From contig NZ_CP012369.1 of the NCBI RefSeq assembly GCF_001267405.1, positions 336,001-400,000 on the forward strand: a stretch of 64,000 bases of DNA, written 5' to 3'. Shown one piece after another: positions 4,924-60,662 of this stretch. The notes under the pieces are model-generated. The model made no database searches and was not told the DNA's origin. It saw nothing but the letters and a program-made list of their open reading frames with translations. Every line of letters starts with the position of its first letter. Within the stretch, counting starts at the first letter, position 1. The position numbers and the translations under genes are program-made. This DNA comes from Moorella thermoacetica. Lineage in GTDB: Bacteria; Bacillota; DSM-521; Neomoorellales; Neomoorellaceae.

Positions 4924-4940
4924 TCTAATGTTTTATTAAA

Positions 4941-4985: not shown

Positions 4986-5013
4986 CCCAAATGGGAAGGG
5001 GAAGATAGATAAA

Positions 5014-5481: not shown

Positions 5482-5506
5482 TTCTAAGAGGAGCGGGGAG
5501 AATAAA

Positions 5507-6787: not shown

Positions 6788-6818
6788 CTATAATGCTTGC
6801 TAGGGAGGACCCTTAACT

Positions 6819-7850: not shown

Positions 7851-7872
7851 AGAAGGAGGTCGAATAAAGCAG

Positions 7873-8634: not shown

Positions 8635-8661
8635 TTTACCAGAGAAACTAGAAAAGGTTTA

Positions 8662-9927: not shown

Positions 9928-9989
9928 TGGTATTAATAGTAGACATATATGCCGCTAACGCGGAGCCTGCAGAATGAAAATCTTTAGGG

Positions 9990-10240
9990 GAGTATTGTGG
10001 CTTGCGTAATCACCACCGAAGGGAAAGAGATTAAGACCTTTGGTAACAAGACTGATGATATTTTGGCATTGATAGACTGGCTGAAAGAGAAGGGGTGTAC
10101 TCATGTGGCCCAAGGAAAGCGCCGGCATATATTGGAACCGATTTATAAAATGTTGGAGCCAGAACTAGTACACCCCTTGGTAGTTAATGGCCAGCATATC
10201 AAAGAAAGTGCTCGAATTTCGGCCTTTAAATGAGTAAATT
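9990..10240 (+). pseudogene. IS110-family transposase remnant
   Basis: A fragment resembling the N-terminal DEDD domain of IS110-type transposases: HVA/VACVITTEGKEIKTFGNK, then GCTHVA, then EPIYKMLEPELVHPLVVNGQ. Between the last two the usual MESTGVYW signature is out of frame. Read one frame over it gives KESAGIYW near 10110-10135, so two compensating single-base shifts have scrambled the active-site region. The start domain and the C-terminal two thirds are missing. It is a dead relic between two uronate genes. Confidence 0.8.
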
Positions 10241-10402
10241 ACCCGCCTAGATAAGGCTAGCCTTTATTGATATGAACCGTTTCCCCCTACCGCTAATTTT
10301 ATGTTGAAATATTTAAATAGCCCAAGAAGCTGCTATTCGGCGAGCATGTAATATATTGTAAAATCGACAGATATTAAATATTTTAAGGAGTGACAAACTA
10401 AC

Positions 10403-12019
10403 TTGCTGGACTTAGACAAAGATAGCATTAAGTATAAAAAGGCCTGGCAGGATGCAGGAATTGAACTACCGGAATTCGATTATGAAAAAATGGTGGCGGA
10501 TACCAAAGAAAACCCCACATGGGTACACTTTGGGGCCGGTAATATATTTAGAGGATTTATTGCCATGCTGCAGCAAAAGCTTCTCAATTTGGGAAAAGCC
10601 AAAACGGGAATTGTGGCGGTAGAGACATTCGATTTCGAAATCATCGATAGGATTTATGTTCCGTATGACAATTTGAGCCTCCTTGTCATCATGAACTTCG
10701 ACGGAACCCTGGACAAAAAAGTAGTTGCAAGTATAAGCGAAGGTTTGATTGGAGACGTTTCGCGAGAACATGACTGGAACCGGTTAAAGGAGATTTTTGC
10801 AAAGCCTTGTCTACAGATGGCGAGTTTTACCATAACAGAAAAAGGATACAGCCTGAAGAATGCATCAGGAGAATACTTTGATGATGTTCTCAAGGATATG
10901 CAGAACGGACCAGGACAGCCTAGGCATGTAATGTCCAAGGTTGCTTCATTGGCCTATACCAGATATAAAAGCGGGAAGTTACCCATTGCATTTGTAAGTA
11001 TGGATAATTGTGCTCATAACGGGGAAAGGCTTTATGAATCTGTTAAAACGATTGTAAAAAAATGGGTTGACAACGGATTGGTAGAAAGCGGTTTCTTAGC
11101 GTATATCAATGATGTAAGCAAAGTAAGCTTCCCCTGGACCATGATTGATAAGATTACACCAAGGCCTTCTGATATTGTTAAGGACTCATTACAATCAATA
11201 GGCTTCAAAAGCACCGAGATCGTTCACACTAAGAAAAATACTTACATTGCACCTTTCGTTAATTCAGAGAGATCCCAATATTTGGTTGTGGAAGACAATT
11301 TTCCTAATGGCCGTATGCCTCTTGAATTGGCTGGGGTACTTTTTACTGACAGGCAGACGGTGGACAAAGTTGAAAAGATGAAGGTCTGTACATGCTTAAA
11401 TCCTCTCCATACAGCTCTGGCGGTATTTGGATGCCTGTTGGGCTATAATCTTATAGCTGATGAAATGAAAGATAGTCAATTGAAGAAGCTGGTAGAGAAG
11501 ATAGGGTATGAAGAAGGCCTACCTGTTGTTGTAAATCCGGGTATATTGAGTCCTGAAAATTTTATACGAGAAGTCATAGAACAAAGGTTGCCCAATCCTT
11601 ATATTCCTGATACACCCCAAAGGATAGCCACAGATACTTCGCAAAAAATGAGTATAAGATTCGGCGAGACTATCAAAGCCTATCGCGACAGGAAAGATTT
11701 AGATCCTGCAAATCTCACCTATATTCCTCTGGTTATTGCGGGTTGGTGCAGGTATTTGCTGGGCTTGGATGACAAAGGTGAATCAATGCCACTTAGCCCA
11801 GACCCCATGCTGGATGTGCTGCAATCGTACCTTTCAAGAGTAAAGCTGGGTGACAGTGAATCTGTAGGGGATAGCCTGAAGCCCATTCTGTCAAATGAAA
11901 GTATTTTCGGTTTAAGCCTTTATGATGTAGGGTTGGGAGAAAAAATCGAGAGTTATTTCAAGGAAATGGTATCCGGACCTAACGCTGTAAGGAATATATT
12001 ACAAAAGTATTTAGGGTAA
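10403..12019 (+). CDS. uxuB: Mannitol dehydrogenase-family oxidoreductase, probable fructuronate reductase
   Basis: A 538-residue polyol/uronate dehydrogenase of the mannitol dehydrogenase family, which includes UxuB and UxaB. The N-terminal nucleotide-binding region contains HFGAGNIFRGF (about residues 44-54), and the family C-terminal domain is complete. The expected reaction is NADH-dependent reduction of D-fructuronate to D-mannonate, the step between the isomerase at 8662 and the mannonate dehydratase at 12090. The start is TTG after AAGGAG. It is longer than E. coli UxuB (about 490) but in line with clostridial forms. Confidence 0.82.
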   Translation: MLDLDKDSIKYKKAWQDAGIELPEFDYEKMVADTKENPTWVHFGAGNIFRGFIAMLQQKLLNLGKAKTGIVAVETFDFEIIDRIYVPYDNLSLLVIMNFDGTLDKKVVASISEGLIGDVSREHDWNRLKEIFAKPCLQMASFTITEKGYSLKNASGEYFDDVLKDMQNGPGQPRHVMSKVASLAYTRYKSGKLPIAFVSMDNCAHNGERLYESVKTIVKKWVDNGLVESGFLAYINDVSKVSFPWTMIDKITPRPSDIVKDSLQSIGFKSTEIVHTKKNTYIAPFVNSERSQYLVVEDNFPNGRMPLELAGVLFTDRQTVDKVEKMKVCTCLNPLHTALAVFGCLLGYNLIADEMKDSQLKKLVEKIGYEEGLPVVVNPGILSPENFIREVIEQRLPNPYIPDTPQRIATDTSQKMSIRFGETIKAYRDRKDLDPANLTYIPLVIAGWCRYLLGLDDKGESMPLSPDPMLDVLQSYLSRVKLGDSESVGDSLKPILSNESIFGLSLYDVGLGEKIESYFKEMVSGPNAVRNILQKYLG

Positions 12020-29060: not shown

Positions 29061-29284
29061 GTAGTAAACAAGAGGAAGCACATGTTGCGGCTGGCATCCC
29101 TTTTAACGAGACCATGTTTGTCTAATAGCGAGCCTCTAGCGGACGGGAAACGGCAGGCACTCAACTGGCAATGGTTTTTAGTTAAGTGCTGCAGAACATA
29201 GAGCGAAGGCAAACAAAGCCGGCCGGGGAAAGAGATGTTAAAGGGATGTTTTACGTGAGGAAGTATTTATACGGAGGTGAGGGC

Positions 29285-31453
29285 ATGTTAGAACAAAAAA
29301 TAACGCGGAGGACATTCCTCAAGGGATCCCTGGCGGCCGGAGCTCTGGCAACCTTTGGCGGCAAGCTAATCCCCATTGAACCTGCCAAAGCCGCGGCAGC
29401 AGGGCAGGCTGAGACCAGGGTGGTTCCCACCCTTTGCGAAATGTGTGGTGTTAAATGCGGCGTCCTGGCCCATGTTCGGGACGGCCGGGTCTGGCGCCTG
29501 ACAGGGAACCCCAGAGACCCCCAGAGCGGCGGTCGCCTTTGCGCCCGGGGCAACGCCGGTACCAAAACCCTCTATGACCCCGACCGCCTCAAGGGCCCGA
29601 TGAAAAGGGTAGGGGAAGGCCAGTTCCAGCCCATTAGCTGGGAGCAGGCTTTCCAGGAGATCGGCAGCAAATTAAAGGAACTGAAGGAGCAGTACGGGCC
29701 CCAGTCCCTGGTCTGGCTCGCCCACCCGGAACTGATCTCACCCCTGGAAAAACACTTCATGGCTGCCTTCGGCTCCCCCAATTATACCGGTCACGGCCCC
29801 ACCTGTTACAGCAGCCGTAACGTGGCCTTCGAGCAGATGTACGGCGGCGTACCCGGGGTGGACTACCGCAATGTCAGGTACTATATCGCCTTCGGCCGTA
29901 ATCTCACCGGTGGGATTAAGAACCCGGATGTGCAAAAGATCGTGGCCGCAAAGGCAGAAGGTGCCCACCTGGTGGCCGTGGACCCACGCCTGAGTGACTT
30001 TGCCTACTTTGCCGACGAGTGGCTGCCCATACGGCCGGGAACCGACCTGGCCATGGTCCTGGCCATGATTAATGTGCTTATCAACGAAAACCTCTATGAC
30101 GCCGCCTTTGTGGCCGCGTATACTACAGGCTTTGAAGAGCTAAAAAAGGGGGTTAGCGGTTATACCCCTGCCTGGGCGGCCGGGATTACGGGCATCGAGG
30201 CCGGGACCATCAGCCGTATCGCCCGGGAACTGGCGGCGGCCAAACCGGCGGCAGCCGTTGACCCCGGCTGGCACGCCGTCACCGGTTCCCAGTACGGCAA
30301 CAGCGTCCAGGCCGGCCGGGCCATAGCTGCCCTCAATGCCCTCCTGGGTAACCTGGGTGCCAGGGGCGGCCTGTCCCTGCCGCCGACCATAAAGTTGGGC
30401 AGTCCCGCCGGGATTATGGGTCCCAAGCCTCCGGCGGCAACGGCACCCCGCTGGGACGGGGCGGGCAGCGAAAAATGGCCCCTCAACAAAGATCATGGTA
30501 TGATCCAGACTTTCCCCGAGAGGGTGAAACAGGACCAGCCCTATCCGGTTAAAGCGGTTATAATCCAGCACTTAAACCCGGTGCGCTCCAGCACCGATTC
30601 CCTCGCCTTCATCGAGGCCTTGAAGAAACTCGACCTGGTGGTGGCCATTGACATCCAGATGAATGACACCGCCTATTACGCCCATTACATCCTCCCCGAG
30701 GCCACCTACCTGGAGCGCTACGACCCCCTGATGACGGTGGGCAATAAAGTTCTCCTGCGCCAGCCGGCCATCAAGCCACTCTTTGATAATAAAGGCGCCG
30801 AGGAGATTATCGCCGGCATCGGCAGGGCTGCGGGCTTAAGTGAGTATTTTAACTTTACCCTGGAGCAGTATAACGACGCCCTGCTCGGCCCCCTGGGCCT
30901 CACCCAGGCCCAGCTGGCCCTGACGGGAGTGGCCGAGGTGGAGGCGAGCAAACCGGATTACAGCAAGCTGAAAACCCCCTCCGGGAAGATTGAGCTGGCC
31001 TGCCCGGCCTTCGTCAAGGCCGGCAGTACCCTGACCCCGGCCTGGGAACCGCCCCTGGTTGAGCCCCGAGATGATAGCTTCCGTTTAATTCAGGGCCACG
31101 TACCCATGCATACCCATACCACCACTGACAATAACAGTTACCTCCACGCCATCATGCCGGAAAACGAGCTCTGGATCCATACCAGCCGTGCCGGTAAACT
31201 GGGCATTAAGACCGGGGACCTGGTTGAGGTGGCTTCAAAGGTTGGTAAGGTCAGGGTAAAGGCCAGGGTGACGGAGGCCATCCACCCGGAGGCCGTTTTC
31301 CTGGCCCACGGTTTTGGCTGCCGGGTACCCCTGCGGCACCTGGCTTATAACCGCGGCGCCAACGGCGGTGACCTGATACCCATTATGACGGCGCCGGTCT
31401 CGGGGGCGGCGGCCCAGTGTGAGACCCTGGTAACGGTACGGAAGGCGGGATGA
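29285..31453 (+). CDS. Psr/Phs-type molybdopterin oxidoreductase catalytic subunit
   Basis: A 722-residue DMSO-reductase-family enzyme. The N-terminus carries a Tat signal (ITRRTFLKGSLAAGALATF), so it acts outside the membrane. The [4Fe-4S] motif is CEMCGVKCGVL followed by CARGN, and the probable Mo-ligand Cys is in GHGPTCYSSRN (about residue 172), as in polysulfide and thiosulfate reductases. The molybdopterin-dinucleotide domain is near the end (HVPMHTHTTTDNNSYLH). ATG 29285 has GGAGGTGAGGGC ahead. With the next two genes it forms a quinone-linked complex; the substrate could be thiosulfate, polysulfide or tetrathionate. Confidence 0.88.
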   Translation: MLEQKITRRTFLKGSLAAGALATFGGKLIPIEPAKAAAAGQAETRVVPTLCEMCGVKCGVLAHVRDGRVWRLTGNPRDPQSGGRLCARGNAGTKTLYDPDRLKGPMKRVGEGQFQPISWEQAFQEIGSKLKELKEQYGPQSLVWLAHPELISPLEKHFMAAFGSPNYTGHGPTCYSSRNVAFEQMYGGVPGVDYRNVRYYIAFGRNLTGGIKNPDVQKIVAAKAEGAHLVAVDPRLSDFAYFADEWLPIRPGTDLAMVLAMINVLINENLYDAAFVAAYTTGFEELKKGVSGYTPAWAAGITGIEAGTISRIARELAAAKPAAAVDPGWHAVTGSQYGNSVQAGRAIAALNALLGNLGARGGLSLPPTIKLGSPAGIMGPKPPAATAPRWDGAGSEKWPLNKDHGMIQTFPERVKQDQPYPVKAVIIQHLNPVRSSTDSLAFIEALKKLDLVVAIDIQMNDTAYYAHYILPEATYLERYDPLMTVGNKVLLRQPAIKPLFDNKGAEEIIAGIGRAAGLSEYFNFTLEQYNDALLGPLGLTQAQLALTGVAEVEASKPDYSKLKTPSGKIELACPAFVKAGSTLTPAWEPPLVEPRDDSFRLIQGHVPMHTHTTTDNNSYLHAIMPENELWIHTSRAGKLGIKTGDLVEVASKVGKVRVKARVTEAIHPEAVFLAHGFGCRVPLRHLAYNRGANGGDLIPIMTAPVSGAAAQCETLVTVRKAG

Positions 31454-31458
31454 GTTAG

Positions 31459-32154
31459 ATGGCGCATTATGCAATGCTTGTCGACCTGACGCGCTGTGTA
31501 GGCTGCCACGGCTGTACCGTGGCCTGCCAGGCCAAGTGGGACCTGTTGCCGGAAATCCAGTTTACCAAGGTGCACCGCTATGAGATAGGTAGTTTTCCCA
31601 AAGTCAAGGGTGGGGTGGTTACCACCCAGTGCATGCACTGCGACGATCCCCCCTGTGCCCGGGTCTGCCCTACCGGGGCCACCCAGAAAAGACCTGACGG
31701 TATTGTCATCGTCGATGAGAGCAAATGTATCGGCTGCCGTTACTGCCAGTCGGCCTGCCCCTATGACGCCCGGAGCTTCAACCCCCAGCGGGGTATCGTC
31801 CAGAAGTGTTATTTCTGTTACGACTTTGTAGCTCAAGGCCGGAAACCGGCCTGTGTGGATACTTGCATGGCCGCGGCCAGGGTCTTTGGTGACCTGGAAG
31901 ATAAAGGCGGCGAGCTAAGCCGGGCTCTGGCCGCTAAAAAAGCCGTCCAGATAAAGGGGACCTCCATCTTTTACGTACCGCCGCGCAACCTGGATGCCTC
32001 GTACCTCCCCCCGGATTTCCGGGAGCCCGGCGCCGTACGCATCTGGCAGGATATCGTCCACCCCGGCGGTAAGACGGTCATGGGCCTGGCAGCCGGCGCC
32101 GTCGTCGCCGGCCTGGTAATCAATAATATCAAAGGAGGCGGGGCCAATGCCTGA
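31459..32154 (+). CDS. Four-cluster ferredoxin subunit of the molybdoenzyme
   Basis: A 231-residue DmsB/PsrB-type subunit with four [4Fe-4S] motifs: CVGCHGCTVACQ, CMHCDDPPCARVCP, CIGCRYCQSACP and CYFC...CVDTC. The C-terminus has a hydrophobic segment (VMGLAAGAVVAGLVI), suggesting membrane anchoring as in FdnH-like subunits. It follows the catalytic gene by five bases and overlaps the next gene by eight. Confidence 0.92.
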   Translation: MAHYAMLVDLTRCVGCHGCTVACQAKWDLLPEIQFTKVHRYEIGSFPKVKGGVVTTQCMHCDDPPCARVCPTGATQKRPDGIVIVDESKCIGCRYCQSACPYDARSFNPQRGIVQKCYFCYDFVAQGRKPACVDTCMAAARVFGDLEDKGGELSRALAAKKAVQIKGTSIFYVPPRNLDASYLPPDFREPGAVRIWQDIVHPGGKTVMGLAAGAVVAGLVINNIKGGGANA

Positions 32155-32827
32155 GGAGAGGGTAGAACGCTTTAACCTGGCCGAACGCCTGGGCCACTGG
32201 AGCCACGGCATCTCCTTTGTCGTCCTGTTGCTGACGGGTTCAGCCCTGGTGTTCCACGGCTTCGGCGGCCTGCTGGGACCCGGGGGCCTGCGCCTTTTCC
32301 GCAGTGTCCACCACCTCATGGCCTATCCCTTCACCTTCCTGACGGTCCTTATCCTTCTTCTGGGAACGCCGCGGACCGCAGGCCAGTGGCTAAAGGAATG
32401 CCTGACCTGGCGGGCCGACGATTTGCGTTTTATCGCCGCTTTCCCCCGGGAGTTCTTCGGCCTTAAGGTCCAGTTGCCCGAACAGGGTAAGTTTAACGCC
32501 GGCGAGAAGCTAAACTCCCTGCTAACTATTTTCGGGTCGATTTTAATGGCCTCAACGGGCTGGATCTTGATCTTCCGGGACAGCGTCTCTCCGGCAGTTG
32601 CCGCCTGGGCCCTGCCCCTGCACTCAGCCGGTGCTCTGGTAATGGGGGGTGTTCTCCTGGGGCATATCTACCTGGCCCTGGGTCATCCCAACTCCCGGGA
32701 GTCCATCAACGGCATGATTTCCGGCCGGGTATCGGCCCAATTCGCCCGGCAACACCACCTCATCTGGTACCGGGAACTCAAGGAAAAGGAAAAGGACTCC
32801 CGGGGAAAGAAACAAAAAATAGCCTGA
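32147..32827 (+). CDS. Cytochrome b membrane subunit (FdnI/PhsC-like)
   Basis: A 226-residue integral membrane cytochrome b of the formate dehydrogenase gamma/PhsC type with four segments. Probable haem-ligand His are in LGHWSHGISF, FRSVHHLMAY and LPLHSAGALV with LLGHIYLALG. It would exchange electrons between the menaquinone pool and the exported molybdoenzyme. The charged C-terminal tail is cytoplasmic. Confidence 0.88.
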   Translation: MPEERVERFNLAERLGHWSHGISFVVLLLTGSALVFHGFGGLLGPGGLRLFRSVHHLMAYPFTFLTVLILLLGTPRTAGQWLKECLTWRADDLRFIAAFPREFFGLKVQLPEQGKFNAGEKLNSLLTIFGSILMASTGWILIFRDSVSPAVAAWALPLHSAGALVMGGVLLGHIYLALGHPNSRESINGMISGRVSAQFARQHHLIWYRELKEKEKDSRGKKQKIA

Positions 32828-32843
32828 AAAAATCCCCTGCATG

Positions 32844-32880
32844 TTGCCCTGGACTAATTCCAGGGCAATAATTATTATAT
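32844..32880 (+). terminator. Terminator-like hairpin after the molybdoenzyme operon
   Basis: Nine-bp arms TTGCCCTGG (32844-32852) and CCAGGGCAA (32860-32868) followed by an AT-rich TAATTATTAT tail. Confidence 0.7.
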
Positions 32881-33000: not shown

Positions 33001-35082
33001 ATGGGCGTCAGTGCCGTGATCCCGGCTTATAACGAAGAGACCACCGTAGGCAGAATTATTGACACCCTGAAACAAGTAGCTGCAGTTACCGAAATCATCG
33101 TCGTCAGCGACGGTTCCGAAGATGATACCGCTGCCGTGGCCCGCCACCACGGGGCCAGGGTACTGGAGCTGGCCGTAAACAGCGGCAAAGGGGCAGCCAT
33201 GACTGCCGGCGCCAGGGAGGCCAGGGAGGACATCCTCCTCTTCCTGGATGCCGACCTGGAGGGACTGCTGCCGGACCACGTCCAGGCCCTCATCGAGCCC
33301 CTGCTGGCGGGCCGGGCCGAGATGAGCGTGGGCATCTTCAGCCGCGGCCGCTCCATGACTGACCTGGCCCAGGTAGTGGCTCCCCACCTTTCCGGCCAGC
33401 GAGCCATCCGCAAAGATCTGTTTTTAGCTATCGGCGCCGACAGGAGCCGTTTCGAGGTAGAGGTCCAGCTCACCAGCGAGGCCAGAGCCCGGAATTGGCG
33501 GGTAGAGAAGGTACCCCTGGTCAACATGACCCATATTATGAAGGAAGAAAAAAGGGGCCTGTACCGGGGGGTAGTAGCCAGGATGGGTATGTATAAAGAT
33601 ATTGCCGGCTTTTTCTGGCGCCTGACCAGGAAGAAGTTAAAGGCGCGGCCGGTAGCCGTGTTGCTGCTCCTGCTGTCGCTGGGGGTGACCTTTAACTACG
33701 ACACCCAGCGAGTGGCTTCCGCGGAAGCCGGCAGGATGCCTGATTTAAACCTGCCGGCAGCAGGACAGCGCCTGCTGGTCGTTTCGCCCCACCCTGATGA
33801 CGAGACCCTGGGCGCCGGCGGCTTGATTGCCAAGGCCAGGGCCCGGGGGGATACCGTGAAGGTAGTATTTATGACCAACGGCGATGGCTTCCGCCGGGGG
33901 GTAGAGACAACCAGGGGCATTTTGCCGACCAGTGCCGGTGATTTTTTGACTTACGGCGAGAGACGCCAGCAGGAAGCCATCACCGCGCTGGGGAACCTGG
34001 GGGTGGGGCCGGCGGATATTATCTTCATGGGTTACCCGGACGGGGGGCTGGCCGCCATCTGGAGTAATTACTGGCAGGAAGACAAACCCTACCGCTCGGC
34101 CTGCACCCACAAGGAGGCCGTGCCCTATAGACTGGCCTTTAAACCGGGCGAACCTTATGCGGCCCCGGCCCTCCTCGCCGACCTGGAGGAGATTCTCCGG
34201 GAGTACCGGCCTACAGATATTTATGTTACCGACACTAACGACAGCCACCCCGACCACTGGGCCACCGGGGCCTTCACCTTGGCGGCAGTGGGGGAGCTAA
34301 AGGGGGAAGACCCTACCTTCAACCCCCGTATCTATACCTTTGTCATCCATACCGGCATGTGGCAAATGCTGCCGGTATTTGACCGGGACCATAAACCCCT
34401 CCTGCCCCCGGGGTATTTCCTGGCCCGGGGTACGCCCTGGTATAAATTGCCTCTGGCGCCGGCAATCCTGGAACTGAAAAAACAGGCTATCGCCGCTTAC
34501 CGGACCCAGGAAATGGTCATGCCCACTTTCCTGGCCAATTTTGAGCGGCCCAACGAGGTCTTCTCCCGCCTGCCGGACCAGGAGGTGATTACCACAGCGA
34601 CGGGCATGAGTGTCGACGGTTGGGTTAAGGAATGGCCCCGGGATGCCGTCATTGCCCTTGACCCCGCCGGTGACCTGGTGACAAAAAAAGTAGAGCGGGG
34701 CGGCGATCTCAAGGCGGCCTACCTGCTCCAGTCTGGCCGGACCACCTATTTGCGCCTGGACACCTGGGGCCGGGTCGGTTTTCCGGTAAATTACACCCTG
34801 AGCATCTACCTGTTGCCGGCTTCTCCCGGGGCCGGTAGCCAGCGCTTTACCTGGTCCTGGGCACCCGGCGAGAAACAGGTCAGGTGGCTGACCCGCCCGG
34901 CCGGTTACGACCCGAATGCCATCCGGGTAGCTTCCGGAGGCGACAGCCTGGAGATGGCCCTGCCGGACCTTATTCCTCCCGGCGAGCACTACCTGATGTT
35001 CACCGCCGTCACCTCTATCGGCAGGCTGCCCCTGGACCGGATCCCCTGGCGCCTCGTAAAGATTAAGGGAAGCGATTTATAA
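33001..35082 (+). CDS. GT2 glycosyltransferase fused to PIG-L/LmbE deacetylase
   Basis: A 693-residue fusion. Residues 1-210 are a family-2 glycosyltransferase (VIPAYNEETTVGRIIDTLKQ, LELAVNSGKGAA, LLFLDADLEG). A hydrophobic segment at about 215-232 (VAVLLLLLSLGVTF) follows. From about residue 255 comes a PIG-L deacetylase (VVSPHPDDETLGAGG with the zinc-binding HPDDE, then DSHPDHWATG), and residues 510-693 form a beta-rich tail. If the hydrophobic segment spans the membrane, the transferase is inside and the deacetylase outside. PIG-L enzymes deacetylate GlcNAc-type sugars on lipids or thiols. The next gene starts directly after its stop codon. Confidence 0.85.
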   Translation: MGVSAVIPAYNEETTVGRIIDTLKQVAAVTEIIVVSDGSEDDTAAVARHHGARVLELAVNSGKGAAMTAGAREAREDILLFLDADLEGLLPDHVQALIEPLLAGRAEMSVGIFSRGRSMTDLAQVVAPHLSGQRAIRKDLFLAIGADRSRFEVEVQLTSEARARNWRVEKVPLVNMTHIMKEEKRGLYRGVVARMGMYKDIAGFFWRLTRKKLKARPVAVLLLLLSLGVTFNYDTQRVASAEAGRMPDLNLPAAGQRLLVVSPHPDDETLGAGGLIAKARARGDTVKVVFMTNGDGFRRGVETTRGILPTSAGDFLTYGERRQQEAITALGNLGVGPADIIFMGYPDGGLAAIWSNYWQEDKPYRSACTHKEAVPYRLAFKPGEPYAAPALLADLEEILREYRPTDIYVTDTNDSHPDHWATGAFTLAAVGELKGEDPTFNPRIYTFVIHTGMWQMLPVFDRDHKPLLPPGYFLARGTPWYKLPLAPAILELKKQAIAAYRTQEMVMPTFLANFERPNEVFSRLPDQEVITTATGMSVDGWVKEWPRDAVIALDPAGDLVTKKVERGGDLKAAYLLQSGRTTYLRLDTWGRVGFPVNYTLSIYLLPASPGAGSQRFTWSWAPGEKQVRWLTRPAGYDPNAIRVASGGDSLEMALPDLIPPGEHYLMFTAVTSIGRLPLDRIPWRLVKIKGSDL

Positions 35083-36069
35083 ATGACGCCCCTGCGTTTT
35101 GGCCTGGAAGAAGAAGTCTTTATAACCGAACCCGACAAACCCACCCTCCAGTCCCTCTATTACCTGGCCCGGTTACTCTGGCTTGACCCGGGCTACTACT
35201 ATACCCATACCGCCTGTAACTTCAACCGCGGTAAGGACCTGCGCTGGGGTCTTATGAGCGGCATTGAAATTTCTACCGGGGTTTTCCCGGACACCGGGGA
35301 CCTCGTCGCCGACCTGCGTCGCCGGCGCCGGGAACTGGCCGCCGTTTGCCAGGGGCTCATTGTTCCGGTTGGCCACCTCTTTGACCAGGTCGCCCCCACC
35401 AATATCTGCGGCATGCACGTCCATGTCAGCGGGTTTCCCGACCGGGAACGGGCCTACCGCAACCTGGTCTACTTCTTACCCCTCCTGGCCCTGCTGGTAA
35501 TCAACTCACCCATAGCCGGCAGCAGGCGCTACGGCCAATCCTACCGCTGGGCGGAAGCCTTTGCCATCGGGCCGCTGCGGGAGGACAGGCTTTATCGCTT
35601 TCAGGACCTCATTGAGTCCAAACGGCTGGGGACCCTGGAAATCCGGGTTTTTGACCCGGTATGGGACCTGGAGCGCATCCGCATCTTGCTGGAATGTATC
35701 CGCGCTGTCCTGGAGGCCGGGGTAGATTATCCGGGGGATATTGAAACCTACAATCGCCTGCGCCGGCAGGTGGCCCTGGAGGGTTACATCCAGGAACTAC
35801 AGCCTATTTACCGGGAACTCTCCAAGCTCCTGCCGGTTCCCGAAGTATATTTCCAGCAAACTCCAGCTGATGCCCTGGGCCGGCTCTGGAAAGAGCAAGG
35901 GACCCTGGCCACTTATACGGCCCTGGATAACGCCTATCGCAACGGCATCCTTCAACCCCGGCCGCTGAAAACGATGCGCGTCCGCTGGCCCTTGATGCTG
36001 GCCGGGTTTTGCGGTTATTATTTACCCAGGATGCCCTATAGTATAAAGAAGGTGTTATCAGAATGGTAA
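35083..36069 (+). CDS. GCS2-family carboxylate-amine ligase
   Basis: A 328-residue member of the glutamate-cysteine ligase type 2 (YbdK-like) family. The N-terminal FGLEEEVFI metal/ATP segment, NICGMHVHVSGF and TLEIRVFDPVWDL are family hallmarks. These enzymes join an amino group to a carboxylate with ATP. The start codon directly abuts the stop of the GT2-PIG-L gene and its end overlaps the next gene by seven bases, so its substrate is probably made by the same operon, not glutathione. Confidence 0.83.
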   Translation: MTPLRFGLEEEVFITEPDKPTLQSLYYLARLLWLDPGYYYTHTACNFNRGKDLRWGLMSGIEISTGVFPDTGDLVADLRRRRRELAAVCQGLIVPVGHLFDQVAPTNICGMHVHVSGFPDRERAYRNLVYFLPLLALLVINSPIAGSRRYGQSYRWAEAFAIGPLREDRLYRFQDLIESKRLGTLEIRVFDPVWDLERIRILLECIRAVLEAGVDYPGDIETYNRLRRQVALEGYIQELQPIYRELSKLLPVPEVYFQQTPADALGRLWKEQGTLATYTALDNAYRNGILQPRPLKTMRVRWPLMLAGFCGYYLPRMPYSIKKVLSEW

Positions 36070-36827
36070 CTTTTTCTATGGCCCTGGCAATCCTGCCCGC
36101 GCTCTTCGTGGGTTTAAACCTTTTAAAGATCCTTCTCCTCCTGGCGGCTGTTATCACCGCCATTATGTGGTTTTTGCGCCGGGTATGGTTCTACCGCGAC
36201 CCGGTCCGGGTGCCTCCAACAGAAGCGGGCACCATCCTGGCCCCGGCCGACGGCAAGATAGTTTACATCAAGCCTTTCCGTAACGGCGAGGTGGTGGCCG
36301 AAAAGCTGGGCCAGGCCATCCCTGTCCGGGAAATAATGAAAGCACCGGGCCTGGGCGACCGGGGCTGGATCATGGGGATTTATATGTCGCCCCTGGATGT
36401 CCACTTTAATTACGCCCCCATTGCCGGTAGGGTGGAGGATATGGTCCATACCCGGGCCAGGGTTAATCTGCCTATGGTGGATCTCTGGGAATACATCCGC
36501 TTGACCTACTTCCGGAGGGCGGTGGACCTCTTTTGCCACCGCTACCGCCTGGTAAATGAGCGCTTGACCATCTTTCTGGATGGTGAGGGCATTAAGATAG
36601 CTATGGTGGAGATAGCCGATAAGTTTGTCAACAAGATAAATAGTTTCATCAAGCCGGGCCAGGTAGTCGACCGGGGCCAGAAGGTATCCTTTATCGAGCG
36701 AGGTTCCCAGGTGGACCTGGTTATCTTTAGCGAGGACGTTGAGTTTACCGTCCGGGTGGGACAGCAGGTATACGGCGCCAGGACGGTAGTGGCTCGCTAC
36801 CGGCCTCCGGGCGGGGTGGTGCCTTGA
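36063..36827 (+). CDS. Phosphatidylserine decarboxylase-like protein
   Basis: A 254-residue PSD-family protein. Two hydrophobic segments at the start (about 4-40) anchor it to the membrane. Then come FYRDPVRVPP, LAPADGKIVYIKP and MSPLDVHFNYAPIAG with the conserved His. The site of self-cleavage, LGST in typical PSDs, reads ERGSQVDLVIF here, keeping the Gly-Ser pair that would form the pyruvoyl group but with Gln in place of Thr. Decarboxylation of a seryl-type lipid head group is likely. The gene overlaps both neighbours. Confidence 0.85.
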   Translation: MVTFSMALAILPALFVGLNLLKILLLLAAVITAIMWFLRRVWFYRDPVRVPPTEAGTILAPADGKIVYIKPFRNGEVVAEKLGQAIPVREIMKAPGLGDRGWIMGIYMSPLDVHFNYAPIAGRVEDMVHTRARVNLPMVDLWEYIRLTYFRRAVDLFCHRYRLVNERLTIFLDGEGIKIAMVEIADKFVNKINSFIKPGQVVDRGQKVSFIERGSQVDLVIFSEDVEFTVRVGQQVYGARTVVARYRPPGGVVP

Positions 36828-37426
36828 CGGCCCTCCATGCTTACCTGGCTCTTTTCGGCCTTCTGGCTATTGAAGGAACGGGTTTACCGGGTGTACCCTT
36901 TGAACCGGCCTTCCTGGCCGCCGGCTATTTGATTGAACGGGGCGAAATGAGCTTCTGGGGAGCGGTGCTGGTCGGGACTGCAGGCAACCTCCTGGGGAAC
37001 CTAATCGGTTACTGGCTGGGAGCCAGGCCCGGTCGCGGGCTGATTGAACGCCTCCTTCACCAGGGATGGGGTGAAGGAGGTATGACAACCGCCCGTTACT
37101 GGCTGGCCCGTTACGGGGCGGCGGTAATTATCCTGGCCCGCTGGTTTGGCCCTATCCGCACCCCCACCATCCTGGCTGCCGGGGTGGTTGGGATGGAGAC
37201 CGGAATCTATGCCCTGTATTCAACCCTGGGTGCCTTTACCTGGACGTTAGCCTGGCAGTATGCCAGTTGGAAGGGGACCCATTACCTTTTGGGGTGGTGG
37301 CAGGTCTACCGCCGGTACGCCACCTGGTGGATGGACGCCCTGTTGATCCTGGCGGGATTGGCTATTACCACCATTTCTGTTTATTATTGCTGGCGGCGCT
37401 GGCGCCGGGATAAGGAACCTGCCTGA
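36824..37426 (+). CDS. DedA-family membrane protein
   Basis: A 200-residue DedA/SNARE-associated-type protein with about five membrane segments. Characteristic stretches are EGTGLPGVPFEPAFLAAGYL, AGNLLGNLIGYWLG (G-x-x-x-G-x-x-x-G) and ARWFGPIRTPTILAAG with the conserved Arg residues. DedA proteins are linked to lipid flipping across the membrane. TTG start overlaps the PSD stop. It completes a four-gene overlapping set. Confidence 0.88.
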   Translation: MTALHAYLALFGLLAIEGTGLPGVPFEPAFLAAGYLIERGEMSFWGAVLVGTAGNLLGNLIGYWLGARPGRGLIERLLHQGWGEGGMTTARYWLARYGAAVIILARWFGPIRTPTILAAGVVGMETGIYALYSTLGAFTWTLAWQYASWKGTHYLLGWWQVYRRYATWWMDALLILAGLAITTISVYYCWRRWRRDKEPA

Positions 37427-37462
37427 TTGACAGGCGCTTATCATCTATGTTAGAATAGTAAT

Positions 37463-37616
37463 GAAAACTAAATAAGCGAGCGCTGAATCCCTGAATAGGG
37501 AACGGGGGAACCACTTCTTGGGGTGAATCCTTTTTCAGGTAGGGTTAACTTTCGACCCGAACCCGGCAGCTAACTTCGTAAGCGTAGAAAGGTGAGGTGT
37601 AATACCGTTAGTTTTC
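37463..37616 (+). ncRNA. c-di-AMP riboswitch (ydaO/yuaA type)
   Basis: The conserved ydaO elements occur in order: CGCTGAATCC, GGGAACGGGGGAACC, TTGGGGTGAATCC, AGGTAGGG, then CCCGAACCCGGCAGCTAAC and CGTAAGCG. A perfect 9-bp closing stem pairs GAAAACTAA (37463-37471) with TTAGTTTTC (37608-37616). The segment AACCCGGC inside the aptamer can pair with the right arm of the terminator that follows, giving a plausible switch: ligand binding frees the terminator. It controls the aminomutase at 37682. Confidence 0.9.
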
Positions 37617-37681: not shown

Positions 37682-38959
37682 ATGAGTATTTACCCGGAGA
37701 AAGGCAGGTTGATGGGAAGGGAAGCTAAAAGGGAAATTGCTCTTGACCGGGCAGCCGAATTGAAAGCCAGGATTGTCGATTACCTGGAAGAAAGGGAGAA
37801 GATCGCCAGCGGCCTGGAGGCGGCAGCCGAGATCGAAGCCAGCAAGCAACGTATCCTGGCTTACTTTGGCGCCGGGGAAGCCGAGTGGCAGGACTGGCGC
37901 TGGCAGTTGACCCACCGTATCACCTCGGTGGCAACCCTGGCGGAACTGATTCCCCTGACAGAAGCTGAAAAGGAAGCCATACTAAAGGTAGAACGTACCT
38001 ATCGCTGGGCGGTTTCTCCTTACTACCTGAGCCTGATGGGACCGGAACCTGATTGCCCCATCCGGCGCCAGGCTCTGCCCAGTGCCGCCGAACTGGAGGA
38101 TAACCATGGCGTCCTGGACCCCATGGATGAAGAGTTGACCTCCCCGGCGCCGGCTATTACCCGCCGTTATCCGGATCGTTTGATTATCAACGTAACCAAC
38201 CAGTGTGCTATGTACTGTCGTCACTGCCAGCGGCGTCGCAATATCGGTGAAGTCGACCGCAGTCGCAGCCGCCGGGAACTGGAGCAGGCCCTCCAGTATA
38301 TCCGCCAGAATGAAGAGATCCGCGATGTCCTGATCACTGGCGGTGACGCCCTGATGCTCAGCGATGCCATGATCGACTGGTTGTTGACGGAACTCGATAA
38401 TATCCCCCACGTAGAAATTAAGCGCCTGGGCACCAGGGTGCCGGTCACTATGCCCCAGCGGATTACCCCGGAGCTGTGCCGGGTTCTGGCCAAGCACCCG
38501 CCCATCTATCTCAATACCCAGTTCAACCACCCCCGGGAGGTTACCGCGGCCGCCAAAGAAGCCTGCGATCGCCTGGTCCAGGCCGGGGTGGTCCTCGGCA
38601 ACCAGGCGGTTTTGTTAAAGGGCGTCAACAACCATCCCTTTGTGATGCGTAAATTAAACCAGGAACTCTTGAAAATAAGGGTACGGCCCTACTATATCTT
38701 CCACGCCAAGCCGGTGAAGGGGACCACCCACTTTATTACCTCCATTGAGGAGGGCGTGGAGATCATGGATAAGCTCCGGGGCTATACCTCCGGCCTGGCC
38801 GTGCCTACCTATATAATCAATGCCCCCCACGGTCTGGGCAAGACCCCCATCTTGCCACAGTATGTAATCGCCCGTAATGATCACCAGGTGATCCTGAGGA
38901 CCTGGGAGAAGCGGATTATTTTTTACTCCAACCTGGGACGCCAGAAGGAACAGGCCTAA
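37682..38959 (+). CDS. eam: Glutamate 2,3-aminomutase (radical SAM/PLP)
   Basis: A 425-residue enzyme of the lysine 2,3-aminomutase family. The cluster motif is CAMYCRHC, and the PLP-lysine segment is near the end in HGLGKTPILP. In lysine enzymes two Asp residues 37 apart bind the substrate side-chain amine; here those positions are Lys343 (YYIFHAKPVKG) and Asn380 (TYIINAPHG), the Lys/Asn pair of characterised glutamate 2,3-aminomutase, with the same 37-residue spacing. The product would be beta-glutamate, a compatible solute. No acetyltransferase (AblB) follows. Expression is under the c-di-AMP riboswitch just upstream. Confidence 0.88.
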   Translation: MSIYPEKGRLMGREAKREIALDRAAELKARIVDYLEEREKIASGLEAAAEIEASKQRILAYFGAGEAEWQDWRWQLTHRITSVATLAELIPLTEAEKEAILKVERTYRWAVSPYYLSLMGPEPDCPIRRQALPSAAELEDNHGVLDPMDEELTSPAPAITRRYPDRLIINVTNQCAMYCRHCQRRRNIGEVDRSRSRRELEQALQYIRQNEEIRDVLITGGDALMLSDAMIDWLLTELDNIPHVEIKRLGTRVPVTMPQRITPELCRVLAKHPPIYLNTQFNHPREVTAAAKEACDRLVQAGVVLGNQAVLLKGVNNHPFVMRKLNQELLKIRVRPYYIFHAKPVKGTTHFITSIEEGVEIMDKLRGYTSGLAVPTYIINAPHGLGKTPILPQYVIARNDHQVILRTWEKRIIFYSNLGRQKEQA

Positions 38960-55791: not shown

Positions 55792-56595
55792 ATGATGCTA
55801 GGAAAAGAAATACGTTTAAGTAGGTTGTTGGATTCTGAATCAAAGCGTTTTGTTGGTATTACAGTTGACCATGCTATGGCCCGTGGTGTTTTACCGGGTT
55901 TAGTTAATATTAAAGAGACAGTTAGGAAAATAATCTTAGGTAAACCTAACGCATTAACGATGCATAAAGGGATTGCTGAAAAAGTATTTCCACCTTATGC
56001 GGGCAAAGTACCTTTAATATTAAAATCTACCACTTTTTCACCTTATCATCCAAAATATGACACGCCAGTGGCTGATGTTGAAGAAGCTTTAAGACTGGGA
56101 GCTGATGCCATTTCAGTTGGTGTTATAGTAGGTGGGCCAGAACAAGCAGAACAAATTACCCATTTAGCTCAAATTAGCAAAGAAGCCTCAGCTATGGGTT
56201 TACCCCTTATAGCTCATATTTATCCGCGCGGGTCCGAAGTAAAAGACCCCAAAAATGCTGATGCAGTTTCTTATGCTGTTAGGGTAGGAGCAGAACTTGG
56301 TGTGGATATCGTAAAAACTAATTGGACAGGTTCGGCAGAGTCTTTTGCTAAGGTAGTGGCTGCCTGCCCCAGCCGTGTAGTAATTGCTGGAGGTTCTTCT
56401 GGTAATGATTTATCATCTTATCTCCAGATGATTTGGGAAGGGATTCAGGTCGGTATGGCGGGGGTAACATGTGGACGTTTCGTTTGGGAAGATTCAAACC
56501 CGGCCGCTGTTATTGAAGCGATTAAGGCTATTGTCCATTCAGGTGCTTCAGTAGAAAAAGCCTTAGAAATTTATAGAGAATGCAAGGAGAGATAA
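55792..56595 (+). CDS. DhnA/FbaB-type class I aldolase
   Basis: A 267-residue member of the DeoC/FbaB (DhnA-type) aldolase family, which also holds LsrF and YihT. The Schiff-base Lys is in GVDIVKTNWTGSAESF; GITVDHAMARG near the start, LIAHIYPRG and VIAGGSSGND are family-typical phosphate and active-site segments. It should cleave a phosphorylated ketose or act on a related phospho-sugar. It is the first gene of a four-gene set with a dehydrogenase, an FGGY kinase and an MFS transporter. Substrate unknown. Confidence 0.83.
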   Translation: MMLGKEIRLSRLLDSESKRFVGITVDHAMARGVLPGLVNIKETVRKIILGKPNALTMHKGIAEKVFPPYAGKVPLILKSTTFSPYHPKYDTPVADVEEALRLGADAISVGVIVGGPEQAEQITHLAQISKEASAMGLPLIAHIYPRGSEVKDPKNADAVSYAVRVGAELGVDIVKTNWTGSAESFAKVVAACPSRVVIAGGSSGNDLSSYLQMIWEGIQVGMAGVTCGRFVWEDSNPAAVIEAIKAIVHSGASVEKALEIYRECKER

Positions 56596-56601
56596 GTTCT
56601 A

Positions 56602-57639
56602 ATGAAGGCTTTAGTGTTTGAGGGACCTAACGAGCTTAAGCTAAGAGATGTACCACTTCCGGAACCGGGAGAGGATGAGATTTTAGTAAAAGTTGCTGCG
56701 TGTTTAATCTGTGGTACAGATCTTAGAATTTTTAGGGGGGCCAAAACAAGAGGGGTCCGGATACCCTCTATTTTGGGCCACGAATTTGCTGGGGTTGTTG
56801 AGGCAACTGGAGTTAATGTAAAAGAATTTCATGTTGGTGATAGAGTAGGTGTGGCGCCTGTTATTCCCTGCCATACATGTTTCTATTGTAAAAATGGATT
56901 AGAAAACGTATGCGCTAATCGTACAGCCCTGGGTTACGAGTATGAAGGTGCATTTGCAGAATATGTATGTATTCCAGCCCCTGCGGTTAAAGGGGGGAAT
57001 GTGTATCACTTGCCTTCCAACATTTCCCTTGAGGAAGCAGCTTTAGCAGAGCCTCTTGCATGCTGTTTGAACGGACATCATAATTCTAAAGTAAAATTAG
57101 GAGATGTGGTTGTAATTTTAGGCGCGGGGCCAATTGGACTAATGCACTTGCAATTAGCTAAAAGTTCTGGGGCCAGTTATGTAATTATCAGTGAACCCAA
57201 TGAACATCGACGTGCTATAGCCAAAGAATTCGGAGCAGATCGTGTAGTAGACCCTCAGACCGAGGATCTAAATAGCATAGTTAAAAATGTTACTGATGGA
57301 TTAGGAGCAGATATAATTTTTTTGGCCATAGGCATACCGGCCTTAGCACAGGATGCCCTTACCCTTGTAAAAAAAGGAGGTACAATTAATTTCTTTGCTG
57401 GCTTTTCTGTTGGTGACAAAGCAGCACTTGATGTAAATCTCATTCATTATAACGAAATAAAAATCACTGGTACAAGTGCTGCAAGGCGTGATGACTATAG
57501 AAAGGCTCTGGATTTAATCGCAAAGGGTAAAGTAAAGGCTTCTAAAATGATCACCCATCGTTTCCCTTTAGATAAGGCGGAAGAAGCCTTTAGAATTGCA
57601 GGATCAAGTCAAGGTATTAAGGTGGCGATTATTCCTTGA
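56602..57639 (+). CDS. Zinc-dependent medium-chain dehydrogenase
   Basis: A 345-residue polyol/threonine-type MDR. Catalytic zinc ligands are in CLICGTDLRI and GHEFAGVVEATG; the structural zinc loop is CHTCFYCKNGLENVC; the NAD motif is GAGPIGLMHLQLA. It probably oxidises an alcohol of the imported sugar or polyol to a ketone before phosphorylation. It follows the aldolase by six bases and overlaps the kinase by four. Confidence 0.9.
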   Translation: MKALVFEGPNELKLRDVPLPEPGEDEILVKVAACLICGTDLRIFRGAKTRGVRIPSILGHEFAGVVEATGVNVKEFHVGDRVGVAPVIPCHTCFYCKNGLENVCANRTALGYEYEGAFAEYVCIPAPAVKGGNVYHLPSNISLEEAALAEPLACCLNGHHNSKVKLGDVVVILGAGPIGLMHLQLAKSSGASYVIISEPNEHRRAIAKEFGADRVVDPQTEDLNSIVKNVTDGLGADIIFLAIGIPALAQDALTLVKKGGTINFFAGFSVGDKAALDVNLIHYNEIKITGTSAARRDDYRKALDLIAKGKVKASKMITHRFPLDKAEEAFRIAGSSQGIKVAIIP

Positions 57640-59135
57640 AAAAACCACTTTTAATAGGCATAGATGCAGGAACAAGCAGCGTTAAAATTTGTATTTTTAA
57701 TATTAACGGGGAACTAGTTCGACAGGGCGAAGTCAAAATTGCTTTTTCGAGTCCACGACCCGGTTGGATAGAATTAGATTTAAAGCAGTATTGGGATGCC
57801 ACTTGCCGGGTTCTTCGGGAGATAACAACAGATTTAACAGGTTTTGCAGGATTGGGTTTTAGTGTAACGAGTCCTACCACTGTATTTTTAGATGATGAGG
57901 GTCTTCCGGTAAGACCTGCTATTCCTTATTTAGATATCAGGAGCAAAGAGGATGTCGAAGAACTAGTTAAATATTGGGGGGGAGAGGAAGATTTTCAATC
58001 TCATGTAGGGAATAAACCTATTCCGTCTACCTATTCTGCCGGAATAGTGCGTTGGATAATGAGAGAAGAAAATAATAGCTGGAATAGAACCAAAAAAGTT
58101 GGCTTTCTTAATACATTTTTATGTGGCCAATTAAAGGGGGAATGGGCAGTTGATCCTACTGTAGCATCTTTTTCTGGCCTGGTGCGTTTAGCCGAACCTT
58201 TTAAATGGTCAGATGAATTACGCGAACTCTTAGGAATTCCATCCTCGAAACTTCTTACAATTTTAACACCTTATACAAAAATTGGTGAAGTAACTCCTCA
58301 AGCGGCTAAGGAGACAGGATTGCCCACAGGACTTCCTGTCGCCCTGGGCTGTGCTGATACCGCGGCTGCTAGTTTTGCTCTGGGTTTATCACAGAAAGGC
58401 GACTGTTTTGAAAGTGCAGGGACCTCGGATGTGCTAACTTTTTGCCTTGATAGACCAGATTTTAATTCTATGTTTCTAAACAGATCTCACGTTTACCCGG
58501 GCCGTTGGCTTGCTCACGGGGCTATGTCTACTCCAGGTGCTGCTATCGAATGGTTGATAACTAATGTTTTTCCCGAATTAGGTACAGTGAGTGAACTAGA
58601 AAAAGAGGCAGAAAGATCCGAACCCGGTGCTCGTGGACTTATTTTTCTACCATATTTGGCGGGAGAAAGGAGTCCGATTTTCGATCCCAATGCCAAAGGC
58701 CTTTGGCTGGGTCTACGACTGGATACTAGACGAGCTGATATTATAAGAGCCGTATATGAAGGAATAGCTTTTGGTTTACGTCAAATCTTGAAATATGCTG
58801 AAGCACAGTGGGATTTAAAAATTAAAAGTTTACCTTGTGTCGGTGGTGCAGCTAAAAGCCAATTGGGATTAAAGATTAAAGCGGATGTATTAGGTTTAGA
58901 GTACCAGACAACAGATTTTCAGCATGTTGCAGCATTAGGTGCCGCATTACTTGGGGGTATAGCAGGGGGTGTTTATATGGGATGGGAGGATCCAGAAATT
59001 CCTTATCTTAAAAAATTCAACTCATGTTTTAAACCTAATTTCACAAATTACAAGATATATGACCAGTTATTTACTATTTATGAAAGGTTGTACCCTTCGA
59101 CAAAAGAAGCAATGCACGCGTTAAATGTATATTAA
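57636..59135 (+). CDS. FGGY-family carbohydrate kinase
   Basis: A 499-residue kinase like xylulokinase. The N-terminal phosphate loop is IGIDAGTSSVKICIF, and the C-terminal ATP-binding segment is PCVGGAAKSQLGLKI. GCADTAAASFALG and TPGAAIEWL are family-like middle parts. It would phosphorylate the ketose made by the dehydrogenase, giving the aldolase its substrate. LsrK is in the same family, so AI-2-type processing is an alternative. Confidence 0.88.
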   Translation: MKKPLLIGIDAGTSSVKICIFNINGELVRQGEVKIAFSSPRPGWIELDLKQYWDATCRVLREITTDLTGFAGLGFSVTSPTTVFLDDEGLPVRPAIPYLDIRSKEDVEELVKYWGGEEDFQSHVGNKPIPSTYSAGIVRWIMREENNSWNRTKKVGFLNTFLCGQLKGEWAVDPTVASFSGLVRLAEPFKWSDELRELLGIPSSKLLTILTPYTKIGEVTPQAAKETGLPTGLPVALGCADTAAASFALGLSQKGDCFESAGTSDVLTFCLDRPDFNSMFLNRSHVYPGRWLAHGAMSTPGAAIEWLITNVFPELGTVSELEKEAERSEPGARGLIFLPYLAGERSPIFDPNAKGLWLGLRLDTRRADIIRAVYEGIAFGLRQILKYAEAQWDLKIKSLPCVGGAAKSQLGLKIKADVLGLEYQTTDFQHVAALGAALLGGIAGGVYMGWEDPEIPYLKKFNSCFKPNFTNYKIYDQLFTIYERLYPSTKEAMHALNVY

Positions 59136-59336
59136 TGAATGTATCCAAAGGGGGGTAATTGATGTATTAAATGTTGTTACAGAGAGATTATAAGCAGTTT
59201 GGAAGGGGGAATATCGATTATAGAAAACAATAAAATTGAAGTGGATGGTAAGAACTAGCTGGCCAGGTCGCTTTCACAATTGCAAGTGCAGGGTAACATT
59301 AAGGCAAAAAATACAATTATGTGGGAGGGTATATAG

Positions 59337-60662
59337 TTGTCTCAGATAGTTACTGAAACGGGAAAAACACTTAAAAAATCAACTAATTATAGATGGATAG
59401 TTTTGCTCCTCATTTTTGTCGCTTATACTATAAACTATGCCGATCGATCAAATATAGGGGTAGTATTACCTTTTATTAAAAAAGATTTCAGTTTGTCCAA
59501 CTTAGAAGCCGGTGCCTTAGCAAGTTTCTTTTTCCTCGGTTATGCCATTTCGCAAATTCCAGCAGGTTTTTGGTTTAGTAAATTTAGTACGCGTGGGTTA
59601 GTATCACTATCAATTCTTGGATTCTCTGCCTTTACCTATTTAATTGGTACCGCCCTCAATGCCACGGTTATGAAATGGTTTCGACTGGGTTTAGGGTTAG
59701 CTGAAGGCCCAACTCCTGTAGGGATGACTACAACTATTAACTCTTGGTTTCCTCCCAAAGAAAAAGCAACAGCTACTGGTGTTTATATTGCTGCAACAAT
59801 GTTTGCGCCGATAATTGTACCCCCTATAGGAATTTGGATTACTTTACATTTCGGATGGCGCTATGTATTTTATTTGTTTGCTATACCAGGTATTGTAATG
59901 TCTTTAATTTGGTATCTGTTAGTTAAGAGTCACCCAGAGGAGAGCCCTTTTTGTTCTGCCGCCGAAGTTGAATATATCCGCAGTGAAAGTAAGGTTACTT
60001 CAAAAGATAATATACAAAGCAATTCTTTAGGATGGTTGGACAAGTTAATCCGTGCCAAGAGAGTAAAGCTTATAGATTCGAACGGGAAAGTCTTTACTTC
60101 ATGGAATATTTGGGGTGACACGCTTGCATATTTTATGATGGTAAGTGTCCTTTACGGTCTAATGACCTGGATTCCATCGTATTTGGTTAATACTAAAGGA
60201 TATTCATTTATGAAAATGGGATTTGTAGCAAGCACACCATGGATCGGTGGTTTTTTGGGCTCAATTATCGGTGGGTGGTTATCGGATAAAGTGTTTCTTA
60301 AGCGGCGTAAGCCAACTATGATTATTACTGCCTTAACTACAGCCATCATGATGGTTGTAATAATATCATTACCTCAAAACGTTTTTGCCGTATCTATTGG
60401 CTTATTCATGACAGGTTTTTTACTAAATATAGGTTGGCCTGCATTTACAGCCTATCCTATGGGTGTGACTAATGCTAACAGTTATCCCGTAGCCATTGCA
60501 CTAGTGAATAGTGGAGGCAACCTTGGAGGTTTCTTTTCTCCAATGATCGTAGGAGCTTTACTGGATGCTTTTAAAAGTTATAATGCTGCATTCCTGTATT
60601 TCGGGCTATGTGCTATTATAGGCTTCATATTAATTTTGACGTTGGATGAACCTATATCGTAG
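59337..60662 (+). CDS. MFS transporter (anion:cation symporter family)
   Basis: A 441-residue, twelve-segment major facilitator of the ACS type, which imports organic anions such as hexuronates, galactarate and glucarate. Typical stretches are YTINYADRSNIGVVLPFIKK and GLAEGPTPVGMTTTINSWFP. TTG start after GGGAGGG. The 200 bp before it has no gene. The family hints that the operon's substrate is an acidic sugar. Confidence 0.88.
   Translation: MSQIVTETGKTLKKSTNYRWIVLLLIFVAYTINYADRSNIGVVLPFIKKDFSLSNLEAGALASFFFLGYAISQIPAGFWFSKFSTRGLVSLSILGFSAFTYLIGTALNATVMKWFRLGLGLAEGPTPVGMTTTINSWFPPKEKATATGVYIAATMFAPIIVPPIGIWITLHFGWRYVFYLFAIPGIVMSLIWYLLVKSHPEESPFCSAAEVEYIRSESKVTSKDNIQSNSLGWLDKLIRAKRVKLIDSNGKVFTSWNIWGDTLAYFMMVSVLYGLMTWIPSYLVNTKGYSFMKMGFVASTPWIGGFLGSIIGGWLSDKVFLKRRKPTMIITALTTAIMMVVIISLPQNVFAVSIGLFMTGFLLNIGWPAFTAYPMGVTNANSYPVAIALVNSGGNLGGFFSPMIVGALLDAFKSYNAAFLYFGLCAIIGFILILTLDEPIS

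Follow-up and report, generated by a model that had tools for sequence, protein, structure and literature searches.

Organization of the locus

The stretch of Moorella thermoacetica DNA analysed here (the window, 64,000 nucleotides of a 2.53 Mb single-contig genome of the Moorella group) contains four head-to-tail open reading frames (ORFs) that fill positions 33001-37426 on the plus strand. They encode a fusion of a family 2 glycosyltransferase (GT2) with a PIG-L deacetylase, a GCS2-like ligase, a phosphatidylserine decarboxylase (PSD)-like protein and a DedA membrane protein, and it is the second and third of these, referred to below as the GCS2-PSD pair, that our analysis identified as the core. 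The initial annotation had described four envelope-type genes with abutting or overlapping ends, and ORF coordinates, Pfam matches and fold comparisons all agree with that description, successive genes abutting or overlapping by 0, 7 and 4 nt. The unit and its boundaries are as follows.

32842-32870, plus strand: terminator-like hairpin with a 12-bp stem (pattern scan only), closing an upstream Mo-oxidoreductase/FeS/cytochrome b cluster
33001-35082, plus strand: GT2-PIG-L fusion gene, ORF of 693 aa
35083-36069, plus strand: GCS2-like ligase gene (core), ORF of 328 aa, starting at the base right after the stop of the fusion
36063-36827, plus strand: PSD-like decarboxylase gene (core), ORF of 254 aa, overlapping the GCS2 gene by 7 nt
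36824-37426, plus strand: DedA/VTT membrane protein gene, ORF of 200 aa with a TTG start, overlapping the PSD gene by 4 nt; PF09335 1.7e-15, UptA-like
37427-37456, plus strand: promoter-like site (11/12 match to consensus, pattern scan), belonging to the next gene
37471-37599, plus strand: cyclic di-AMP (c-di-AMP; ydaO) riboswitch, leader of the next gene and, with the promoter-like site, right boundary of the unit
37682-38959: glutamate 2,3-aminomutase gene right after the unit, scoring above the TIGR04368 cut-off

The four genes are framed as one unit because a terminator-like stem precedes them and a promoter-like site and riboswitch follow.

Conservation of the GCS2-PSD pair

A profile of the GCS2-like protein was searched in data holding one genome per species and returned 47 loci, most of their genomes being metagenome-assembled genomes (MAGs), with record titles naming Bacillota, Coprothermobacter, Caldisericia, Actinomycetota/Coriobacteriia, Armatimonadetes, Aminicenantes and Lithacetigenota. 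A PSD of the same type began within 400 bp downstream of the GCS2 gene in 34 of the 39 loci that had at least 1 kb of contig on that side, across about seven phyla. Mirror-tree comparison of the two proteins gave r = 0.82 (36 loci), a value to which shared species history contributes. Because the layout recurs across phyla, a chance arrangement is far from likely.

The other members of the unit were less regular, as PIG-L was found inside 20 of the 47 fetched loci, DedA inside just 17 and GT2 inside 13. The order GT2-PIGL-GCS2-PSD-DedA is that of Moorellaceae, and elsewhere we observed GCS2-PSD-DedA-PIGL (L046, L052), PIGL-GCS2-PSD (L055) and, with gaps, GCS2-PSD-GT2 (L062, L065). Further neighbours vary by lineage; those of the pair in Caldisericales and actinobacteria included no extra conserved partner, their translations, judged without a profile scan, resembling lineage-specific housekeeping and transport genes. 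The conserved core is the GCS2-PSD pair, narrower than the four-gene pathway set that had been suggested. Conservation of gene order in relatives, proposed as a check, held in Moorellaceae and gave way to a shuffled order elsewhere, where the pair stays together, and of the suggested set the adjacent pair stands while the scarcity of DedA and the lack of specificity of GT2 (see below) speak against the whole.

Distribution of PSD in relation to phosphatidylserine synthase

Sixty-one relatives were searched for the GCS2-like protein, the PSD family (PF02666) and the phosphatidylserine (PS) synthase gene pssA (TIGR00473). A PSD above cut-off was present in 31, and these are accounted for in full by the 17 GCS2 genomes and the 14 pssA genomes, two sets that share no member (Fisher p = 4e-18). 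The 30 relatives with neither gene yielded no PSD above cut-off, G051 giving one sub-cut-off, stop-riddled match. Counted by genus among the pssA-negatives, PSD occurred in 8 of 8 GCS2 genera and 0 of 28 others (p = 3e-8). When 28 GCS2 genomes drawn from all groups were considered, none had pssA above cut-off and 27 held a PSD, one each, the two matches in G087 being pieces of a single gene.

The M. thermoacetica genome itself, like the 17 GCS2-positive relatives, had no TIGR00473 match above cut-off; a phospholipase-D-type PS synthase was not searched for. Since the exclusion rule holds and the only cytidine diphosphate (CDP)-alcohol transferase of this genome is PgsA by gene context, the PSD-like enzyme is not supplied by a PS synthase of the CDP-alcohol type, and the ligase is its sole constant partner. 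A published KEGG table (PMC8671834) marks phosphatidylethanolamine (PE) biosynthesis for one genome of its comparison.

The PSD-like decarboxylase

The PSD-like protein is the only PF02666 protein in its genome and matches the family strongly (E 2.5e-38; 132.2 bits against a cut-off of 22). Its residues D63, H114 and RG-S215-QVD keep the Asp, the His and the pyruvoyl-forming motif G214-S215, and a strong hydrophobic membrane segment is predicted at residues 20-38. The PSDs of GCS2 genomes likewise retain D63 (apparently not in L062 and L065), H114 and the G-S cleavage site; among them Y117 (R or H in canonical enzymes), D186 and GSQVD are invariant, with R213 and N190 nearly so. Y117, R213, Q216, D186, N190 and an insert at 135-151 make up a signature that is absent from canonical PSDs, and the residue pattern of PssA-linked PSDs (HxNR, FGS-C/T) is not found in the GCS2-type enzymes. 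Phylogenetic analysis separated the PSDs of GCS2 genomes, adjacent to GCS2 or not, from nine short PssA-linked PSDs by a long branch with 100/100 support, in a midpoint-rooted tree whose long branches leave the root position unsure. The non-adjacent PSDs of L110 and L111 still fall in the GCS2-type subfamily. Retained catalytic residues together with this signature fit unchanged chemistry on a different substrate.

Two further PSDs were recorded. A second PSD bearing the full signature is present in one Moorella, well away from the operon (L112; G009:C1, 5513-6283, minus strand). A second, intermediate PSD without the full signature occurs in a genome with pssA and without GCS2 (L102; G032:C31, 4487-5185, minus strand), inside a gene run whose translations resemble B12-binding and radical-SAM proteins, and this enzyme may decarboxylate yet another product.

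The GCS2-like ligase

NCBIfam matches of the GCS2-like protein are weak and partial and remain below the curated cut-offs of the YbdK/glutamate-cysteine ligase (GCL) family (PRK13515, E 1.4e-11, 43.7 bits against 371; a further score of 33.5 against 176 bits). The predicted fold (model with a predicted local distance difference test score, pLDDT, of 72) matched best to YbdK-type enzymes, followed by plant GCL, PafA/Dop, GshA and glutamine synthetases, with Z of 17-22 for YbdK, GCL, GshA and PafA/Dop (22.1 and 21.8 to 1tt4 and 1r8g, 19.6 to 2gwc and 18.5 to 4bjr, over about 250 residues). On this modelled fold the protein is assigned to the GCS2/GshA-fold carboxylate-amine ligase superfamily, and its earlier label of GCS2-type amino ligase is sound at that level. 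Profile matches to designed repeat proteins in the PDB were put down to chance. The protein carries the motifs GLEEE, GMHxH and GTLEIRVFD, sharing fold and core motifs (E-x-E, GxHxH, E-x-R) with the GCS2, YbdK, GshA, EgtA and PafA ligases; it differs from them in being short (328 aa), under all family cut-offs and coupled to a PSD, and in having an extra conserved C-terminal tail that extends past the fold. It is 98% identical to its counterpart in M. thermoacetica DSM 21394. Characterised relatives of the GshA/GCL, PafA and glutamine synthetase types activate the gamma-carboxyl of glutamate, and by analogy this is the likeliest group to be activated by the GCS2-like ligase.

GT2, PIG-L and DedA

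The fusion protein comprises the following parts, and a single-sequence AlphaFold model of the whole reached a pLDDT of 39.7.

33001-33630, plus strand: GT2 domain, residues 1-210; PF00535 1.1e-24, GpgS/polyprenyl-P-hexose-synthase-like
33637-33693, plus strand: single N-in hydrophobic stretch, residues 213-231, predicted from hydropathy and charge
33775-34287, plus strand: PIG-L deacetylase domain; PF02585 3e-31, 109 bits against 28.2, motifs HPDDE and HPDH
up to 35079, plus strand: variable C-terminal domain, following the PIG-L domain

The GT2 is a widespread stand-alone gene in Bacillota. Because its subfamily was present in 49 of the 61 relatives whether or not GCS2 was present (p = 0.15; 24 of the 28 GCS2 genomes), it is not specific to the pair and was dropped as a core member. 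The PIG-L subfamily occurred in 17/17 GCS2-positive and 3/44 GCS2-negative Bacillota relatives (truncated in G001), and at E 1e-15 it was undetected in 11 of the 28 wider GCS2 genomes. In 20 of 21 PIG-L homologues the domain is C-terminal to one hydrophobic stretch, positively charged on its N-side and about 30 residues ahead of the catalytic motif, and for this reason it is predicted to lie outside the membrane, away from ATP and the ligase; the L055 homologue has no such stretch and is probably cytosolic. PIG-L shares its zinc motifs with the PIG-L/LmbE deacetylases MshB, BshB and eukaryotic PIG-L but, unlike them, is fused to GT2 in Moorellaceae and predicted to be extracytoplasmic. A bacillithiol or mycothiol role was rejected on scores below the NCBIfam cut-offs for BshB and MshB (44.2/182.5 and 36.2/224 bits). 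DedA has the VTT domain and size of the DedA/UptA undecaprenyl-phosphate translocases but scores below the UptA cut-off (NF052604, 66.9/250 bits), and its link with the pair is not universal.

Two independent natural deletions in other Moorella species bear on these associations. G004 (L166, 8313-9813) has lost the catalytic part of PIG-L, GCS2 and PSD as one block, retaining GT2 and DedA between unchanged flanking genes, and G001 (L174, 1004-4081) has lost the 3' part of PIG-L and the 5' part of GCS2, with GT2, PSD and DedA kept. From these deletions it follows that PIG-L travels with the pair, whereas GT2 and DedA can persist without it.

A proposed aminolipid pathway and its alternatives

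The best reading of these data is that the ligase takes over from PS synthase in providing the PSD with its substrate, and we lean, on balance, towards the two enzymes being consecutive steps of an aminolipid pathway independent of PS. The ligase would act with ATP at the cytoplasmic face of the membrane, joining the side-chain carboxylate of an alpha-amino acid, most likely the gamma-carboxyl of glutamate, to the amine of a membrane lipid. Its product, like PS, would keep a free alpha-amino-alpha-carboxylate, which the membrane-anchored pyruvoyl enzyme could then decarboxylate to a terminal primary amine. With glutamate the end product would be a 4-aminobutanoyl headgroup standing in for PE; among possible products this amide is favoured because side-chain-linked glutamate retains both alpha groups, amino and carboxyl, on which a PSD depends. 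It is a tentative and rather doubtful extension that such a gamma-aminobutyric acid (GABA)-type headgroup, arising when a lipid amine is gamma-glutamylated and the product alpha-decarboxylated, defines a new class of membrane aminolipid that replaces PE across at least seven phyla in bacteria without PS synthase. PIG-L, predicted to lie outside, and DedA may serve in the envelope, working on the lipid after export or on an amino sugar attached to a lipid, and not in steps before ligation. Gene pairing, PS synthase exclusion, PSD signature and ligase fold come from computation, and from them we infer the direct hand-over of product, glutamate, the lipid amine acceptor and the roles of GT2, PIG-L and DedA.

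Several points weigh against this proposal. Its chemistry is a prediction from gene and protein sequences; the ligase has no Pfam match, Pfam GCS2 included, and low identity to characterised ligases; and topology prediction places the sole acceptor candidate in the cluster, a deacetylated amino sugar, across the membrane from the ligase. Moreover, MAG G070 (L039), possibly incomplete, has GCS2 without a PSD, G001 keeps its PSD beside a GCS2 that lacks the first ~70 residues, and D63 is apparently missing from the PSDs of two Armatimonadetes (L062, L065). The PS synthase exclusion covers the CDP-alcohol type and not the phospholipase-D type.

This last point leaves some room for an ordinary PS decarboxylase that makes PE from PS that is scavenged or supplied by an unrecognised or phospholipase-D-type synthase, GCS2 being a neighbour with another job, and the strong family match and intact catalytic motifs are as expected for such an enzyme. 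We regard this as quite unlikely, as GCS2 predicts the presence of PSD in all pssA-less relatives, signature residues are altered and adjacency spans phyla. An alternative has GCS2 forming a soluble gamma-glutamyl product that loses its carboxylate through the PSD-like enzyme (to a GABA amide, for instance) and serves as osmolyte, thiol or signal rather than as a lipid. It draws on the soluble amines used by GshA and YbdK, on the action of PsiD, a PSD-family tryptophan decarboxylase, on a free amino acid, and on the downstream gene under c-di-AMP control, which concerns glutamate-derived osmolytes. It too appears unlikely, given the strong membrane segment retained by the PSD, the conserved tail on GCS2 and the envelope-type neighbours PIG-L and DedA, and the riboswitch gene has a promoter-like site of its own.

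The initial annotation had instead placed all genes in a linear route, in which GT2 transfers a sugar to a lipid (read here as N-acetylglucosamine, GlcNAc), PIG-L removes the acetyl group, GCS2 joins an amino acid to the amine so freed, PSD takes off the carboxylate and DedA flips the product. Such a route accounts for every gene and supplies an amine acceptor for the ligase, and it would agree with the presence of the PIG-L subfamily in all GCS2-positive Bacillota relatives and in few others, its loss en bloc with the pair in G004 and the probably cytosolic PIG-L of L055. Sugar transfer and N-deacetylation ahead of ligation are nevertheless doubtful, given the predicted outside location of most PIG-L homologues, the failure to detect the subfamily in 11 of the 28 wider GCS2 genomes, the unspecific GT2 and the survival of GT2 and DedA in G004, and the route as a whole seems improbable. 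The ligase-to-decarboxylase step within it, most likely on a lipid, is supported by the adjacency of the pair and the occurrence of PSD only with GCS2 or PS synthase. Finally, the ligase could activate a lipid-borne carboxylate and couple it to the side-chain amine of ornithine or lysine, the PSD then yielding a diamine-headed lipid. This would also leave a free alpha-amino-alpha-carboxylate for the PSD, but the characterised relatives activate glutamate and no lipid acid is known, which makes it very unlikely.

The proposed ligase-PSD pathway resembles both the PssA-Psd route to PE and the archaeal archaetidylserine (AS) synthase/AS decarboxylase pair, in which a pyruvoyl PSD-family enzyme likewise turns an amino-acid-headed lipid into an amine. 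As with GCS2-PSD, the two genes of the PssA-Psd route are frequently adjacent; it differs in that GCS2 genomes lack a CDP-alcohol-type PS synthase, have a GshA-fold ligase in its place and carry a different PSD signature. The initial annotation knew of no described pathway with this gene set, and the open-access literature likewise gave no description of the pair and nothing relevant on the set, on a PSD with a carboxylate-amine ligase or on Moorella lipids. It is routine to annotate PSD homologues as phosphatidylserine decarboxylase and to read them as evidence of PE synthesis; this annotation is probably wrong for Moorellaceae, Coprothermobacter, Caldisericia and the Coriobacteriia-like and Armatimonadetes MAGs. 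Should the ligase stand in for PS synthase, the anaerobes concerned would form another kind of amine-headed lipid, through previously undescribed chemistry. M. thermoacetica is a heat-loving acetogen that can be cultivated, so direct testing is possible.

Flanking regions

The riboswitch-like leader sequence that follows the unit is also seen in G004 (L166). Upstream, at window positions 29186-32827, lie genes for a PhsA-like Tat molybdopterin oxidoreductase, an FeS subunit and a formate-dehydrogenase-gamma-like cytochrome b, all under equivalog cut-offs. At window positions 4001-12000 and 56001-60000 GC content falls to 0.39-0.41 (about 0.6 elsewhere) and GC skew is strongly positive; these low-GC stretches are possibly foreign DNA.

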